From contig JAMXLF010000094.1 of the NCBI GenBank assembly GCA_024281055.1, forward strand, positions 1-64,000: a stretch of 64,000 nucleotides of DNA. The letters run 5' to 3'. Shown in pieces: positions 35,121 through 42,600 of the stretch. Each line of letters starts with the position of its first letter. Positions within the stretch are counted from its first letter, which is position 1. The position numbers were made by a program, and so were the translations under genes. The DNA comes from Geobacteraceae bacterium (GTDB taxonomy: Bacteria > Desulfobacterota > Desulfuromonadia > Geobacterales > Geobacteraceae). The notes beneath the pieces are model-generated. The model did not search any database. It had not been told where the DNA came from and saw only the letters and a program-made list of their open reading frames with translations.

Positions 35121-36242
35121 TTAAAGTACGACCAGGTTGTCCCGGTGGATAATCTCATCCCCATACCGGTAACCGAGAATCTCTTCGATCTCCCGGCTCT
35201 TGTGCCCGAGAATACGCTCTATCTCCGGGCGGGAGTAATCGGCGATTCCCCGGGCGAATTCCACGCCATCCGGGCCGCAGACCCGCACGCAGCTCCCCCG
35301 TTCGAACTCCCCTTCCACCCCGACGATACCGGAGGGGAGGAGGCTCCGGCCGTGCTGGGCGAGGACCTTGCGAGCACCCTCGTCCACGATGAGCCGACCT
35401 TTCGGCCTGAGGGTGTAAGCGATCCAGTGCTTGCGCCGGTTCAGCACCTGCCGCGCCGGCAGGAAAAAAGTGCCCGCCTCGCTCCCGGCAAGGGCGCGCC
35501 CGATCAGGCCGGGAGTCTTGCCGTTGAGCATGATGGTCGGCACCCCAGATCGCCCCACCTTTTTAGCTGCGGCCAGCTTGGTAATCATGCCGCCGGTGCC
35601 AACCCGGGAACCGCTCCCCCCGGCAGCCTGCTCCATCTCCCGGGATATGGCCTTGACGAGAGGGATAAGCCGGGCGTCGGGATTGGTCCGGGGGTCGGCC
35701 TCGTAGAAACCGTCGATATCGGTGAGGATCACCAGGAGATGAGCCTCGGTCAGGTTGGTGACGAGGGCGGAGAGGTTGTCGTTGTCGCCGAACTTGATCT
35801 CCTCAACGGCCACGGTGTCGTTCTCATTGATGACCGGGACGATCCCGAAGCCGAGAAGCGTATCGAGGGTGGCGCGGGCATTCAGGAACCGCTGGCGATC
35901 GGCCAGGTCCTCGCGGGTCAGGAGCAGCTGGGCAACCTTGAGGCCGTGCCGTGAAAAAGCTTCCTCATAGGAACGCATGAGCTTCGACTGGCCGACGGCG
36001 GCAGCCGCCTGTTTCTGGGGAATTGTCCGTGGCTTGTCCTCCAGCCCCAGGGCCTTCCTCCCGGCAGCCACGGCACCGGACGAAACGATGATCACCTCGC
36101 GCTTTTCCCGGCGCAGTGCGGCAATCTCGGCGGCAAGCCGGCCGATCACCCCGGCGTCGAGACCGTCGTCCTCACTGGTCAGAACCCTGCTGCCAATCTT
36201 GACGACGATCCGTCGCGCCTTTTTCAGAAGCTCTCGCTGCAT
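35121..36242 (-). CDS. proB: Glutamate 5-kinase
   Basis: 373 residues; the first, usually proline-inhibited step of proline synthesis. The amino-acid kinase domain has '[12 protein letters not shown]', '[17 protein letters not shown]', 'INENDTVA' and [14 protein letters not shown]-terminal PUA domain (about 285-365) is present, as in full-length ProB. ATG 36242 is used; the frame extends upstream with no family similarity. Its usual upstream neighbour obgE is here about 14 kb away. Confidence 0.95.
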
Positions 36243-36328
36243 GATAGATAAGTGTACCAGACCACGGTTGATAAATACAGGAATTGCCGTCAAAACACTT
36301 CAGGCGAAGTCTGGAGCAGACGCAAGGA

Positions 36329-36349
36329 AGGGCGGGTTACAAACCCGCC
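36329..36349. terminator. GGGCGGGTT / AACCCGCCC hairpin upstream of proB
   Basis: A 9-bp stem with a 3-base loop lies between proB and the mobile element. It lacks a T run, so it may be a leader or repeat hairpin rather than a true terminator. Apart from the target duplication and element end, the 36243-36510 gap holds nothing else recognisable. Confidence 0.4.
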
Positions 36350-36437
36350 CCGGAAGCCGCACCGTCAGCGTCTAACCGCATCCGCCCAGTAACAGGCCGG
36401 CATACTACCATGTTTGCCCGCGAATGGCAATTACTGC

Positions 36438-36445
36438 AAATCCCG
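36438..36445. repeat. Target site duplication AAATCCCG, left copy
   Basis: The same 8 bases lie directly outside the right end at 39636-39643. Because the element end starts with GG, a 9-bp duplication is equally compatible. Length 8-9 bp is typical of IS1-family insertions. Confidence 0.85.
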
Positions 36446-36470
36446 GGTAGTGGGTCAGTTTGAAATTTCC
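36446..36470 (+). repeat. Left terminal inverted repeat
   Basis: Begins GGTAGTG, two variable bases, then TCAGTTTGAAATT. The first 22 bases match the inverted right end at 20 positions. Confidence 0.88.
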
Positions 36471-36510
36471 AGGGATTGAAATGCTTGAGGGTATATGTTA
36501 CCTTTAGGGC

Positions 36511-36750
36511 ATGAAAACTATTAAAGGAAAAGGCAAGCATCTTGATTTCTGCCAGATCGCGCACGCTGTAGTTGAAGCCGCAACGGACGAAACCCCGCAA
36601 GAGGAAGAACCTGCAAAGAATCCTGCCGCTGTCGCTCTTGGCCGTCTAGGTGGGTTGAAAGGCGGCAAAGCCCGCGCCGACAAGCTCTCTCCTGAACGTC
36701 GCAAAGAGATTTCAAAGCAAGCCCTCGAAAAAAGATGGGGCAAAAAGTAA
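36511..36750 (+). CDS. Small basic protein with NPAAVALGRLGGLKGGKA motif
   Basis: 79 residues. The N-terminal half is helical with an acidic linker (DETPQEEEPAK). The C-terminal half is Lys/Arg/Gly-rich: NPAAVALGRLGGLKGGKARA, then 'LSPERRKEISKQALEKRW'. This looks like the KGG-type or histone-H1-like small nucleic-acid-binding proteins common in bacteria. It is the first gene inside the mobile element and could help package or regulate the element's DNA or RNA; that role is inferred. Confidence 0.6.
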   Translation: MKTIKGKGKHLDFCQIAHAVVEAATDETPQEEEPAKNPAAVALGRLGGLKGGKARADKLSPERRKEISKQALEKRWGKK

Positions 36751-36793
36751 ATTCCTATTGATTTGCCTGAAATAATGTGAAACACTAGGCATA

Positions 36794-37174
36794 GTAACTG
36801 TGCGCCATGTACGGATGCAACTGTGCATCTGGGCGCGGCCCAAAGTGGGGAAGGAGGTTTCCAGTTACATGAGGACCTCCTATGCGCACAGTCAAATTTA
36901 AAGACATATATGCTTTGGGTGCCGGACAAAGACTCCATGTAATATGGGGAAATTGTATGGGTATTCAAAGCAAAAGTCTAACTGGGGGCGAGACGGTTAG
37001 CAGGAAGGCTCGTCTCATGGTTAGACAAAATAAAATTAAAACTAATCGTGGGGCCAGCACGATTGAAAAGGAAGGACGCCCCCATGATTAGAATCCAGTA
37101 CCTTGCTGCGGCTCATGGAGAGCCTTCCGAAAGCCTGGATCTGTTAGCAATACGCTACAGGTCTGGGCTTTTTT
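36794..37174 (+). ncRNA. Highly structured RNA or attenuator leader inside the mobile element
   Basis: Perfect or near-perfect stems follow one another. They are ACTGTGCGC (36797) with GCGCACAGT (36884), enclosing hairpins GATGCA-actg-TGCATC and AGGAGGT/ACCTCCT; GTCTAAC (36976) with GTTAGAC (37020), enclosing GAGACG/CGTCTC; and a 12-bp stem 37042-37053 with 37080-37091. Last is a 12-bp stem 37132-37143/37158-37169 with a T6 run, a textbook terminator. In each main module a GGAGG/GGAAGG sequence lies in the loop and an ATG abuts the 3' arm. Alternative pairings exist. A 69-codon frame (36882-37091) runs through it, but its coding status is doubtful. Confidence 0.6.
37132..37174 (+). terminator. 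Strong intrinsic terminator closing the structured region
   Basis: AGCCTGGATCTG pairs over 12 positions (three G-T) with CAGGTCTGGGCT, with an inner TAGC/GCTA, then TTTTTT. It stands 15 bp before the ribosome binding site of the HTH gene, so it would stop or attenuate transcription into that gene. Confidence 0.85.
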
Positions 37175-37198
37175 CGTTTATGGCGCATGGAGGTTGTC

Positions 37199-37387
37199 AT
37201 GGTCGAAGATCGTTTTATAAGAGCTGGGGAAGTCCAGCAGCTAACCGGACTTAACCGCGTTACAGTTTGGCGGATGGAAAAACGCGGAGAGTTCCCGAAA
37301 CGGCGCAAACTGACTGTAAAAGCTGTTGGATGGAGTTTAGCGGAGATTCTTAGATGGATGGAAAGCCGTGAGCAGGTAGCGGCTTGA
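37199..37387 (+). CDS. AlpA/MerR-like small HTH protein
   Basis: 62 residues. 'FIRAGEVQQLTGLNRVTVWRMEKRGEFPKR' matches the AlpA-type helix-turn-helix, and 'GWSLAEILRWMESRE' is the usual C-terminal helix. Such proteins regulate or assist excision of mobile elements. GGAGG lies 5 bp before ATG 37199; an ATG four codons earlier has no ribosome site. It follows the structured region and its terminator directly. Confidence 0.8.
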   Translation: MVEDRFIRAGEVQQLTGLNRVTVWRMEKRGEFPKRRKLTVKAVGWSLAEILRWMESREQVAA

Positions 37388-37414
37388 CTATCTCGCAAAG
37401 AAAGGAGGTCAAAG

Positions 37415-37489
37415 ATGCCGCCGCCTTTACTCAAGGTGCTGGAGCGGATTCGGCACCGTCAACAAAAAATAAGTAGAGGGAAAGAGTGA
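37415..37489 (+). CDS. 24-residue ORF with a near-consensus ribosome binding site
   Basis: AAAGGAGGT lies 5 bp before ATG 37415. The peptide is basic (KVLERIRHRQQKISRGKE) and its last codons lie inside a long hairpin. It may be a leader peptide for the transposase or a coupling ORF in the HTH transcript. It is too short for family recognition. Confidence 0.4.
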   Translation: MPPPLLKVLERIRHRQQKISRGKE

Positions 37490-37580
37490 TCGCCTGGTAA
37501 GCCTCTCTCTTCCCCTCTATGAATCCGCACCCGGCTAGGGGATGCTGTATTCTATGCCTGCCATGATACAGCATCCCCCC
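37435..37580 (+). ncRNA. Second structured block upstream of the transposase
   Basis: GCGGATTC (37444-37451) pairs exactly with GAATCCGC (37521-37528). This encloses a 13-bp stem with one mismatch (37474-37486 with 37507-37519). A perfect 13-bp hairpin, GGGGATGCTGTAT (37538) with ATACAGCATCCCC (37566), follows. The last hairpin ends in CCCCTT rather than a T run, so it is not a normal terminator. It may control transposase expression or act as a DNA site. Confidence 0.5.
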
Positions 37581-37653
37581 TTCTAAGTCAAAGAGTATTC
37601 AAGCTTTTTAAGCATAGGGACCAAAATATTTCTCACAATGCTGACTTTTTTAC

Positions 37654-37681
37654 TTGACGGCTTAAATAAAAAAGCTATAAT
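37654..37681 (+). promoter_or_regulatory. Transposase promoter
   Basis: TTGACG (37654-37659), a 16-bp spacer and a perfect TATAAT (37676-37681) lie 39 bp before the transposase start codon. Confidence 0.65.
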
Positions 37682-37720
37682 GGAATCATAAGGCAGTTAA
37701 GTTGTTCGGTGGGGGTCGCC

Positions 37721-38548
37721 ATGAACAAACTGAGTATCGAGAAAAGGGCGCAAGTTATCGGTTGCCTCGTTGAAGGCATGAGCATTCGTTCTACGGTTCG
37801 GATTACTGGCGCTGCCAAGAACACGGTAACAAAGCTTGTCGTTGATCTCGGTCAGGCATGCTATGACTACATGGATAAGGCTATGCGTGACCTCCCCTGT
37901 CGGCGTATCCAGTGTGATGAAATATGGTCCTTCTGCTACGCCAAAGAAAAAAACGTCCCGGCAGACTTGAAAGGTCAGCTAGGCTATGGCGACGTGTACA
38001 CCTGGACGGCCCTTGACCCCGACACAAAACTAATCCCCTCTTTCATGGTGGGCAAGCGTAGCGCGGAATATGGCAACGTATTTATGCAAGACCTCGCTGG
38101 TCGTCTCAGAAACCGCGTACAGCTCACCACAGACGGCCACAAGGTATATCTTCAGGCTGTCGAAAACGCTTTCGGCTGTGAGATTGATTATGCAATGCTG
38201 GTAAAGATTTACGGCGGGGTTTCAACTGAGGATGAGAGAAGATATAGCCCAGCAGAATGCACAGGGGCCGAAGTCCAGGTAATCACCGGCAATCCAGATG
38301 AAAAGAAGATTTCAACGAGTCACGTAGAGCGGCAGAACCTGACCATGCGCATGAGCATGAGACGTTTTACTCGTCTTACCAATGGATTCAGCAAGAAGAT
38401 TGAAAACCATTTCTATGCTACGGCGCTTTACTTCATGTATTACAACTTTGGCAGGATTCACAAGACGCTGCGGGTTACACCGGCAATGGAGGCAGGAGTA
38501 AGTGACCACGTTTGGACATTGGAAGAAATAGCGGGGCTAGTGGATTAG
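37721..38548 (+). CDS. IS1-like DDE transposase
   Basis: 275 residues in one uninterrupted frame, unlike classic IS1, which needs a frameshift. The N-terminal HTH is 'GMSIRSTVRITGAAKNTVTK'. Catalytic residues are probably Asp near 66 (QCDEIWSFCYAKEKN), Asp near 138 (TTDGHKVYL) and Glu in HVERQNLTMR near 202. The tail 'YNFGRIHKTLRVTPAMEAGV' is typical of this widespread transposase type. ATG 37721 follows GGTGGGGG. TIR sequence and target duplication length agree with an IS1-related enzyme. It appears intact. Confidence 0.85.
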   Translation: MNKLSIEKRAQVIGCLVEGMSIRSTVRITGAAKNTVTKLVVDLGQACYDYMDKAMRDLPCRRIQCDEIWSFCYAKEKNVPADLKGQLGYGDVYTWTALDPDTKLIPSFMVGKRSAEYGNVFMQDLAGRLRNRVQLTTDGHKVYLQAVENAFGCEIDYAMLVKIYGGVSTEDERRYSPAECTGAEVQVITGNPDEKKISTSHVERQNLTMRMSMRRFTRLTNGFSKKIENHFYATALYFMYYNFGRIHKTLRVTPAMEAGVSDHVWTLEEIAGLVD

Positions 38549-38553
38549 AATTA

Positions 38554-38916
38554 TTATTTATGAGGGACAATAGGCACAAGATGTGTCAATATAGGTACGA
38601 GAGCATCCCATATCTTCCAGAACAAATAAAAAATGCCACCACCGATAAAAGTTATTAGTCCACAAACAACCTTTATTGTTACCTTGGCGGCATGAACGTC
38701 TTTATCTACATTATTTAATGTCTTGCTATTCTTTTCTAGTTCTACTGTCAGTGTTGTAACGGCTTGGTCTAGTTTACCAAGGGTTTTTTGCATTTCCATA
38801 ATGGCTTGTAGGGTAAAGCTATGATCAGCAGGGGGAGGGTAAGCCTCTGGAGTAGTTTGAGGTAACCTACCGGGTACTGAACCCAATGAATTTTGAGTAG
38901 TTCCGGTTTTACCCAT
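38554..38916 (-). CDS. Small membrane protein with coiled coil (mobile element cargo)
   Basis: 120 residues. A Pro/Thr-rich start is followed by a heptad-like helix (IMEMQKTLGKLDQAVTTL) and one or two membrane segments near residues 78-112 (VVCGLITFIGGGIFYLFW). The shape is like XhlA-type phage proteins. Its start overlaps the stop of the upstream gene by one base, so the two are co-translated, convergent with the transposase. A small soluble partner plus a membrane protein would fit a toxin, immunity or abortive-infection pair, but nothing here proves it. Confidence 0.55.
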   Translation of the reverse strand: MGKTGTTQNSLGSVPGRLPQTTPEAYPPPADHSFTLQAIMEMQKTLGKLDQAVTTLTVELEKNSKTLNNVDKDVHAAKVTIKVVCGLITFIGGGIFYLFWKIWDALVPILTHLVPIVPHK

Positions 38917-39185
38917 TAATCGCTTCCCTCTATCTTAGAAGCCATCCATTCCCATAAAGTCGGTTCTGATCGCCCCCAGTATGCAGTAATTTTAAAGACG
39001 ACCCCGCCAATTGGTGTCCCTTCAGAAATACCCAACATATCTGAGACTTGTTGTGCTGTGCTCCGACTAGAGACAACCCATTGTGTTGGCGTAATCCGGT
39101 AACGATCAGAATCAGGGAATACACCTTCTATCCTATGTATAAATTGGGTGTTTTCATTCGGTACTAACACAGCAAACAAGCCCAT
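38916..39185 (-). CDS. Small soluble hypothetical protein (mobile element cargo)
   Basis: 89 residues with no signal peptide or membrane segment. It mixes beta-like stretches (FAVLVPNENTQFIHRI, 'TQWVVSSRSTAQQVSDML') and ends in 'VFKITAYWGRSEPTLWEWM'. It overlaps the following membrane protein gene by one base. I do not recognise the family. Its expression probably starts in the 39186-39330 gap, which has no other gene. Confidence 0.55.
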   Translation of the reverse strand: MGLFAVLVPNENTQFIHRIEGVFPDSDRYRITPTQWVVSSRSTAQQVSDMLGISEGTPIGGVVFKITAYWGRSEPTLWEWMASKIEGSD

Positions 39186-39336
39186 AATTCGCCCTTTTAA
39201 GCCAATAAAAGTGGGTTTAGGTTAAACACCTTATACCTTACGGAACACTAAAGTCAATGAGTAAACGCCTTTCGTTCCGATCATTTTTACTTTATTATAA
39301 ACAGAAATGAATTCTATTTTCAAGTAAAATCTAAGC

Positions 39337-39376
39337 AAAAAAATGCCCGACTCCTTGGAGGGCCGAAGAGTCGGGC
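39337..39376 (-). terminator. Minus-strand intrinsic terminator
   Basis: On the minus strand GCCCGACTC pairs with GAGTCGGGC across a 14-base loop, followed after one base by T7. It lies 150 bp upstream of the two-gene cassette and would stop transcription entering the element from the right, or end a small RNA. Confidence 0.8.
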
Positions 39377-39474
39377 CAACGTCTTGATGCTTTATTATTT
39401 ACCAACAGATCGGCAAGTTTGCAAGCTCGTATATGCACTTTTCCGCCAACCGTAACCGCTCGACAACCGGAATA

Positions 39475-39507
39475 TAAAAAAGCAGAGCCGCCAATGGACA
39501 GCTCTGC
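39475..39507 (-). terminator. Second minus-strand intrinsic terminator
   Basis: GCAGAGC pairs with GCTCTGC across a 12-base loop, followed by T6-7 on the minus strand. With the terminator at 39337-39376 it forms a tandem barrier just inside the right end. Confidence 0.78.
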
Positions 39508-39574
39508 AAAGAAGGAGGCAGTATAGTGGAATATTATTATGTCACGGGGATGGAGGTTTGCAAGTACCGAAAGG
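39475..39574 (-). ncRNA. Candidate small RNA at the element's right end
   Basis: A minus-strand promoter-like pair (TTGCTT at 39607-39602 and TATATT at 39585-39580, spacer 16) would start a transcript of about 100 nt ending at the 39475 terminator. The segment just before the terminator contains CCTCCTT, which could pair with Shine-Dalgarno sequences. No ORF is likely. This is inferred from promoter and terminator only. The rest of 39186-39666 holds no gene. Confidence 0.35.
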
Positions 39575-39610
39575 CAAATAATATACCATGCGTGAGCGGT
39601 TAAGCAACCC

Positions 39611-39635
39611 GTCAATTTCAAACTGAGACACTACC
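39611..39635 (-). repeat. Right terminal inverted repeat
   Basis: Inverted match to the left end, 21 of 25 positions, reading GGTAGTG inward on the minus strand. Confidence 0.88.
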
Positions 39636-39643
39636 AAATCCCG
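39636..39643. repeat. Target site duplication AAATCCCG, right copy
   Basis: Identical to 36438-36445, directly outside the right element end. Confidence 0.85.
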
Positions 39644-39666
39644 GCATCGACCGATTGCCGCGCCCG

Positions 39667-42600
39667 TTATCGGTCGAGCACCGCCCGCACCTTCTGGAGC
39701 AGGCCGTTTTTCGAAACCGGCTTCATGAGGAAATCGAGACTTTCGTCGAGCAAACCCTTCTTATGGATGATGTCGTCGGTGTACCCGCTCGTGAAGATGA
39801 ACTTCATCCCCGGCGCCATCCGGGTGATCTCGTCGAAGACTTCCTTGCCGTTTTTCCGCGGCATGATCACGTCGCTCATCACTAGTGCTATCTTGTCCCG
39901 GTGCTGCCGGAACAGGGACACCGCTTCCTCGCCGTTGGTGGCGGTAATCACCGTGAAGCCGGCCAGTTTCAGCATCTCTTCCATGAAGTGCCGAACAATG
40001 GCGTCGTCCTCGGCGAGGAGGATGGTTTCCGTTCCATAGGCAGGGAGTACCGCCGCTTTTCGCGCCTCAGCCTCGGCACCCGACTCGACCGGCAGGTAAA
40101 TGGTAAAGGTCGTCCCTTTGCCCGGCTCGCTTTCGACGGCAACCGCACCATTGTGCTGTTTGACGATGCCGTAGATGATGGAAAGGCCAAGCCCGGTACC
40201 CTTGCCAGGTTCCTTGGTGGTGAAGAACGGTTCGAAGATCCGTGCCCGGGTCCGCTCGTCCATGCCGGTGCCGGTGTCCGCAACGGTGATGAGGGCATAC
40301 TCACCCGGCTTTTCCAGTTCGCAGCGGCGGGCTGCACGCTGATCAAGCTGCTCCTGGCGCGTGCTGATGCAGAGTTTTCCGCCGTCCGGCATGGCATCGC
40401 GGGCATTGGCAACCAGATTGACGAGCACCTGGTCGATCTGCCCCCGATCGGCCAGCACCATCAGAGGAATGCTGGTCAGGTTTGTCTGAAATTCGATGTC
40501 CTCGCCGACGATCCGCGCCAGGAGCTTGGTCACGTTGATGATGATCTCGTTGACCGGTACCGGTTTCGGGTTGATGATCTGCTTTCTGCCGAAGGCGAGG
40601 AGGTTTCTGGTCAGCTCGACGGCACGCTCCGCGGCACCCAGCAGTTGCTCGCTGCACATCATGAGAAGTTCGTTGTCCGGGTCGATATTCTCCCGGATTA
40701 TCTGCCCGTAACCGGTGACAGCGGTCATGAGATTGTTGAAGTCGTGGGCCACGCCGCCGGCCAGGAGCCCGATCGATTCCATTTTCTGGGCTTGGTGCAG
40801 TTCCTGTTCCAGGCGCTTCCGCTCTGTGATGTCGTGGATGATTCCCCGGTATCCGGTGATCTCGCCCCGGTCATCGCGGGTTACCGACGCGGTCTTCAGC
40901 ACGTGAAGGGTTTCCCCGTCCTTCCGTTGCAGCCGCATTTCGAAGTTCCGCACGAATCCGTGCCAGTACAAAGCCCGCAGGAAACGTTCCCGATCAGCCG
41001 GATCACTGTAAAGCTCGCTGGATAAGTCGAGCGCGGCCAATTCTTCCCTTGTGTAGCCGAGGAGCTCGATACCGGCGGGGTTTACATCCACCAACCGGTT
41101 ATCGGCATCCATGAGGTAGATCATATCCTTCGATTCCTCGAAGAGGGAGCGGTACTTTTTCTCCGACTCACGCAGCAGCGTCTCCCGCACCAGGTTGTCC
41201 AGGGCAAAGGAGACATCCTCTCCCATCTGCTGCAGCAGTTCAACGTGTTGCTGATCGAAAAAGTCGGCCTTGTCCGCATATAGGGTCAAGGCGCCGACCA
41301 CCTTGCCCTCTTGCTTCAAGGCGACAGAGGCAGAGGCCCTGATCCCGTGGGCCCTGCCCCGTTCATGCCAGGGGCGCGTAGCCGGATCGCCCAGGAAATC
41401 GTTACAGATACAATAGGTACCCTCGCGGACGGAAATACCCGTGGGGCCTTCCCCCGCCGGTTCTTCGATGGCCGTGATGCGGATGTCGTCCAGGTACGCG
41501 GTTGCCCCCCGGGCCGCCACCCTCTCCACCCGCCCGGTCTCCTTGTTCATAAGGCCAACCCAGGCCAGAAGGAACCCGCCGTCCTCGACGGCGATGCGAC
41601 AGAATTCGTTGAACAGGGTCTCCCGGTCCACAGTCCGAGCAATAGCTTGCCTGGTCCCGCTCAGCACCGTATTCAGCCGGTTCATGCGCTGGACGTTCTC
41701 TTCCGCCCGTTCCCGTTCCGCAATTTCGGCCAGCAGGGTTTCAACGGTCCCGGCCAGTTCCTCCGTCCGTTCCCTGACCCTCGCTTCCAACTCGTCGTGG
41801 GCTTTCTGCAAGGCCTCTGCAGCACGTTTTCGCTCCATGGCGATGGCAACCTGGTCGGTCACCGCCTTCATGAGGGAGAGATCGTCGCCGGAGAAACCGG
41901 TCCTCGTTCTGGTCCCGAAGGAAAGGGTGCCGATGACCCGCCCCTGAGACAACAGGGGATGGCAGGCATACGCCTGGATGCCGTACGCCTTCACCAGCTC
42001 CGTCCGTGGGTCCGGGGTGTTCGGGATGTCCTCCGCGACGATACGACAGGCATCCCGGGCGGCACAGCCGCAGACCGCCGTACCGTAGTCGAGCCACTCG
42101 ATACTCTTCGCCTCGTCCCCGGGAATACCGGCACAGGCGTTCAGATGCAGGCGCCCCGCCTCCTCGTCAACCAGAAAATTGAAGAACGCGTGGCAGTCAA
42201 GGAAGGACATGACCTTTCGGCAGAGAGAATCGACTACTTCTTGCGGTGAGTCGCTCGCGAGCAGTTCACTGGCAGTCTCAGCCAACAGGTTCGTGCGCTC
42301 GTAGCTCTTTCGCAGCGTCTCAGCCAACGTGTCCCGTTCCGTCAGCGACCGGGCGAGCTTGAGGTTGCTGTAGCTCATCCGCGATATCATGTCGGCAAGC
42401 TCCATGAAATAGGACATGCCGGCGGCCAATGCCTCTCTGCTCATCCGCGGAACGCTTTCGAGGCAAGTGATGTACACTTTTTCGTCGAACCCGTACTTTC
42501 TGGCCTGGGTGCGGAAAAGCTCGTAATCCAGTGGCTCGTCTTCAAAGAAGAATTGCCCCATGAAGAAGTTGCCGAAATGTTTGCCGCCGACCATGATCGG

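Follow-up and report, generated by a model that had tools for sequence, protein, structure and literature searches.

Folding predictions for positions 36790-37174 of the window (the whole 64,000-nt stretch of Geobacteraceae DNA that was analyzed) point to a real, strand-biased and orphan RNA structure, an array of hairpins that ends in an intrinsic terminator just ahead of an alpA-like gene. Both array and gene are cargo; the IS1-family transposon that carries them (36446-39635) is intact and 3190 bp long. The reading that we tentatively favor, as possible though somewhat short of probable, is that the array is the 5' leader RNA of the alpA-like gene, in which translation of short overlapping open reading frames (ORFs) would decide whether transcription reads through the terminator.

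Predicted structure of the array

The segment from 36785 to 37180 has a predicted minimum free energy of -157.6 kcal/mol (z -7.84), which none of 100 dinucleotide shuffles reached. Folding of 36790-37174 gave z -8.9 on the + strand versus -6.2 on the - strand, with 21 G-U pairs versus 8, and this bias in folding and G-U content points to a + strand RNA and not to a DNA palindrome. When 36000-40100 was scanned, strong structure was restricted to about 36790-37200, apart from a hairpin near 37540-37580 past alpA. The array is the most structured segment within its own transposon, and the structure at 36790-37200 came top of 1018 windows in a scan of 30 related elements. Folding supports the central claim of the first-pass annotation of this DNA, made from the letters alone: a structured RNA that has hairpins at start regions and a terminator and lies upstream of an AlpA-type gene. 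No convincing sigma-70 promoter was found just upstream of the array.

The individual modules differ from that earlier description, which had three alike modules, each with a Shine-Dalgarno (SD)-like motif in the loop and an ATG sequestered at the 3' arm. In module 1 (36797-36892, + strand; z -4.25), ACTGTGCGC/GCGCACAGT form the closing stem of a branched hairpin, and the arms at 36797-36805 and 36884-36892 are indeed complementary at nine of nine positions. The AGGAGG of this module (36852-36857), however, is not in a loop but base-paired with CCTCC, and the module's natural start is ATG 36869, at 11-nt spacing from AGGAGG, and not ATG 36882 at the 3' arm. A long hairpin at 36911-36972 (module 1b, +; -28.6 kcal/mol, z -6.71), with ATG 36957 adjoining its 3' arm, had been missed. 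Module 2 (36976-37026, +; z -4.51) has the stem described for it, with AGGAAGG in the loop and ATG 37017 at the 3' arm. The 12-bp stem of module 3 (37042-37091, +; z -2.97) pairs ATG 37084 and joins the arms 37042-37053 and 37080-37091 by 11 Watson-Crick pairs of 12 and one G-U; here too the SD-like motif is in the loop, as proposed. The computed unpaired probability of the SD is about 0.7 in modules 2 and 3 and 0.01 in module 1; that of the ATG is 0.03 in module 3, in keeping with sequestration, but 0.48 in module 2, where the ATG is paired only about half the time. The competing partners of the 5' arms were located in both modules (CTAAC/GTTAG in module 2 and AATCGTG/CACGATT in module 3), the latter pair also in the fold with the 3' arm blocked. 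An integron attC site was considered for the attC-like arms GTCTAAC/GTTAGAC of module 2; such arms are absent from modules 1, 1b and 3, and the likeness was judged a coincidence from the sequence.

Modules 2 and 3 are diverged tandem copies. Their local alignment scores 18.5 against a shuffle mean of 7.9 (sd 1.5; 0 of 1000 shuffles) and contains 40 identities, 15 mismatches and 6 gap columns. What the two have in common is AGGAAGG, an 8-base spacing, the ATG and the hairpin, with AGGAAGG and most of CATGRTTAGA unchanged between them. Modules 1 and 1b have no sequence similarity to modules 2 and 3 or to one another, so that the proposed repetition holds for modules 2 and 3 and fails for module 1. 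Equal random divergence retained so stable a fold in 6.6% of trials starting from module 2 and 0.4% starting from module 3. Inspection of the base pairs by hand found one double compensatory change (G-C to A-U), after the ATG, and the rest one-sided or unchanged; the covariation in this comparison, the sole one that bears on the array, is therefore modest. For modules 2 and 3 taken together, the predicted folds are nearly equal in energy (-41.4 kcal/mol nested versus -39.4 kcal/mol as two local hairpins), and the cross-module pairing may be a simple by-product of duplication.

The AGGA/AAGGA motifs in the loops of modules 2 and 3 recall a CsrA-binding leader or a CsrB-like sponge, in which GGA motifs in hairpin loops would be combined with a terminator, and CsrB is similar in length to the array. 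This explanation was rejected as very improbable for this host, given that its 11 GGA motifs are no significant excess over the 8.1 expected for the array (P 0.11) and that the present genome, 99.6% complete, contains no match to CsrA (PF02599), which alone makes such a sponge unlikely.

Searches for relatives of the array returned the window copy only, a result that holds for the collections and sensitivities named here. Rfam, including the C4 antisense RNA and isrK families, had no match in 36400-37450 even at E values up to 10, in agreement with the earlier statement that no named RNA class has this layout. A DNA search of 196 relatives and of the genome itself recovered only the window copy, and distant blastn searches against phages and plasmids matched the transposon ends and left the array unmatched. 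The covariance model of modules 2 and 3, built on the nested fold, was run on 27 loci and, within the order, on 141 genomes, with no convincing match other than itself. The pattern AGGAAGG-N8-ATGRTTAGA occurred in 35 stretches of viral contigs, none of which had the module hairpin on inspection.

Start sites, terminator and a translation-gated leader

Three strong SD-ATG starts (36869, 37017 and 37084) were observed where 0.28 are expected (P ~0.003). A 69-codon open frame (36882-37091, +) has in-frame ATGs at 36882, 36957 and 37017, and its stop overlaps ATG 37084. ORF b, from ATG 37017 to TAG 37091, accordingly overlaps with its stop the start of ORF c, a 56-codon open frame (37084-37254, +; within the frame 37048-37254) that begins at the module 3 ATG and reads across the terminator to end beyond the alpA start. 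No family or homologue was found for the short-frame peptides in Pfam, NCBIfam and PHROG or among related loci and viral contigs; this includes the ORF c peptide in PHROG and the 69-aa frame in viral contigs.

These start sites bear on a second explanation, in which the array is a structured ncRNA that stands by itself, is about 380 nt long and acts in trans, be it on the mRNAs of other genes or on the transcript that arises from its own readthrough, its ORFs and SDs being incidental or only targets. A very stable multi-hairpin fold whose end is a strong terminator would suit such an RNA, as would open frames without known relatives, but three well-spaced SD-ATG starts exceed chance and are what modules 2 and 3 conserve, and Rfam gave no match; we regard a free ncRNA as somewhat unlikely.

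The intrinsic terminator (37129-37174, +; -26.1 kcal/mol, z -4.60) consists of the stem 37130-37144/37157-37171 followed by T6. It had been annotated as a perfect 12-bp terminator with T6 and is strong, but the stem is 15 bp long (12 Watson-Crick and 3 G-U pairs) and not literally perfect. As in an attenuator, it lies between leader and gene, 15 nt 5' of the SD of alpA. The alpA-like gene itself (37199-37387, +; 62 aa) has its ATG 5 nt after GGAGG, and its product matches Phage_AlpA in Pfam (E 1.1e-16) and an excisionase and transcriptional regulator family in PHROG (E 4.8e-16). Past the gene, a strong hairpin at 37539-37580 (GGGGATGCTGTAT/ATACAGCATCCCC) lacks a T-run and may be a bidirectional terminator or a binding site.

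Among 62 other AlpA genes, 4 have a preceding terminator by a simple rule but no such array. A few of these 62 upstream regions are structured or contain terminators; the modules were seen in none. The motif of terminator plus GGAGGTTGT had two other matches in 395 genomes, both ahead of unrelated genes. Given that other alpA genes have preceding terminators, the terminator alone may only insulate, and the array before it could be palindromic cargo DNA, drifting or left over as a relic, that now serves no function. The occurrence of the array as a single copy without homologue agrees with this, yet decay would not be expected to leave the strand asymmetry in folding and G-U pairs, a z near -8 over 390 nt, the excess of SD-ATG starts, or a duplicate that retains both hairpin and start site. 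We consider a relic ahead of an insulator unlikely.

A translational or attenuation leader, as the first-pass annotation had suggested, is still the best reading; of its elements, the terminator, the start sites, the duplication and the structure as predicted are what the sequence shows. In the default state, hairpins would enclose the start sites, the short ORFs would be little translated, and transcription would halt at the terminator, freeing an RNA of about 380 nt. Ribosome entry at ORF b would open module 3 and allow an overlap re-start at ATG 37084, and ribosomes translating ORF c through the terminator stem would let the polymerase run on into alpA. The threshold of this switch could be set by the cross-module pairing together with the competing partners of the 5' arms in modules 2 and 3. 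That the array is transcribed, that its short ORFs are translated and that readthrough reaches alpA are steps that we infer. Counting against the leader model are the negative results of the promoter and homologue searches and, for the short ORFs, lengths (24 and 56 codons) that chance produces not rarely and peptides that have no known relatives.

Comparison with known regulatory RNAs

The leader model has its closest working precedents in IsrK and the immunity region of the satellite phage P4. In the prophage Gifsy-1, a terminated IsrK RNA and a readthrough mRNA govern the ribosome site of an upstream ORF (PMC4825925). Both IsrK and the predicted array RNA belong to mobile elements and have a terminator of their own; the IsrK readthrough mRNA has its ribosome site in alternative structures, and its upstream ORF couples to the downstream gene (PMC4825925). 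They differ in that the array has no Rfam match and precedes alpA, whereas IsrK precedes an antiterminator gene. In P4, termination is prevented by translation of Eta and caused by the CI RNA (PMC10111431), and its immunity region (seqA, CI RNA, kil/eta) resembles the present locus in its nested ORFs, in the association with an alpA-type gene and, on the leader model, in translation preventing termination (PMC10111431). Unlike P4, the present element contains no integrase or primase, the array has no C4/CI-type RNA match, and alpA lies downstream here and upstream there. The stop is intrinsic here and Rho-dependent in P4. The element thus belongs to neither the IsrK nor the P4 kind, having no Rfam match and alpA as its sole satellite gene. 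A phage satellite (P4-like or PICI) was likewise rejected, as only an alpA-like gene, out of the set of integrase, alpA and primase, is present between the transposon ends.

The array may resemble ribosome-mediated attenuators of the erm/trp type in having four arms whose pairing is predicted to alternate (5'2:3'2 and 5'3:3'3 versus 5'2:3'3 and 3'2:5'3) beside short ORFs and a terminator. Diagnostic stall codons were not seen in the array, and such leaders are not known to contain repeated SD-ATG modules. If the leader model holds, translation-gated termination in the style of P4 and IsrK would extend to transposon cargo, and AlpA-type regulators, key switches of phage satellites, would gain a layer of RNA control.

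The host transposon and its sister elements

The transposon context with its target duplication was absent from the first-pass annotation. Two copies of GGTAGTGNNTCAGTTTGAAATT lie in the window, in inverted orientation at 36446-36467 and 39614-39635, with 0 occurrences expected in shuffles. These positions are the left 22-bp terminal inverted repeat (GGTAGTGGGTCAGTTTGAAATT, +) and the right one (-), which mirrors it, and directly outside them lies a perfect 8-bp direct repeat, AAATCCCG, at 36438-36445 and 39636-39643 (without strand), the two copies of the target-site duplication. The transposase (37721-38548, +; 275 aa) matches NCBIfam transpos_IS1 with E 3.9e-15, below the curated equivalog cut-off. 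Its best match is IS1, ahead of IS1595, and its full-length relatives on plasmids are 57-60% identical and mostly annotated as IS1 family transposase. The element combines inverted ends, a target duplication in the 8-10 bp range and an IS1-type DDE transposase, as is typical of the IS1 family. Some 30 loci with these ends encode homologues of a small basic protein with an H1-like tail (36511-36750, +; 79 aa), which, judging by these sequences, is part of the transposon core. Two further cargo genes of 120 and 89 aa (38554-39185, -), arranged as an operon, match no Pfam, NCBIfam or PHROG family over the cut-off, and the 120-aa protein, in which a hydrophobic stretch near the C-terminus is apparent by eye, has no relative in 96 other genomes. 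The insertion site lies between a proB-like gene (35121-36293, -) and a sensor-kinase gene.

The same ends were found in 77 viral-contig stretches, many with 8-bp duplications, on alphaproteobacterial plasmids and, with at most one mismatch, in 7 of the 138 genomes searched from the order, the present genome included. For about two dozen elements, perfect 8-bp duplications marked the boundaries, and several of these elements are short and without a full transposase. Across elements, the basic protein and the transposase recur and the cargo varies: it includes a HigB-like toxin with HTH/M78, a SocA/Panacea antitoxin, PIN/MazE (VapBC-like), an AAA/AbiEii-type ATPase, a DNA methylase and many HTH/M78 pairs. 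Among the loci compared, the window copy is the only such element to contain both array and alpA. It thus resembles passenger-bearing IS1-family transposons in its IS1-type transposase, its inverted ends starting with GG and its 8-bp duplications, and differs in carrying a structured RNA and alpA where its sisters often carry toxin-antitoxin, HTH/M78 or defence-like genes. Together these elements form an IS1-family group whose regulatory, toxin-antitoxin and defence-like cargo is exchangeable and can include structured RNAs too.

The toxin-antitoxin and defence-like cargo of the sisters would fit an RNA-protein addiction module, in which an AlpA-like protein or a short peptide would be harmful and the RNA would keep it in check, and the order of RNA units, terminator and small gene recalls type III systems such as ToxIN, likewise in a mobile element. 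The RNA units of ToxIN are short pseudoknot repeats, whereas the array has just two repeats, both long hairpins, and the gene after the terminator is of the Phage_AlpA/excisionase type, a family of DNA-binding regulators that is not a known toxin. No ToxN/CptN/TenpN-type nuclease follows the terminator, and a type III assignment was rejected; an addiction module in the wider sense seems to us quite improbable. Only a little less doubtful is the composite proposal of a new, transposon-borne class of multi-start leader, in which tandem SD/ATG modules and overlapping mini-ORFs would gate the AlpA terminator, or else of the RNA half of an addiction module.

Other members of the group are reduced in size. 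One element (L211:4336-5394) has no transposase gene, the same ends (3 and 0 mismatches) and a MazE/PIN frame, and from its sequence is apparently a mobile VapBC-like unit of about 1.06 kb. MITE-like elements of 345-486 bp with the same ends and 8-bp duplications occur in viral contigs (L057, L077, L099, L105, L074 and L098), and the first four of these keep a fragment matching the transposase C-terminus.
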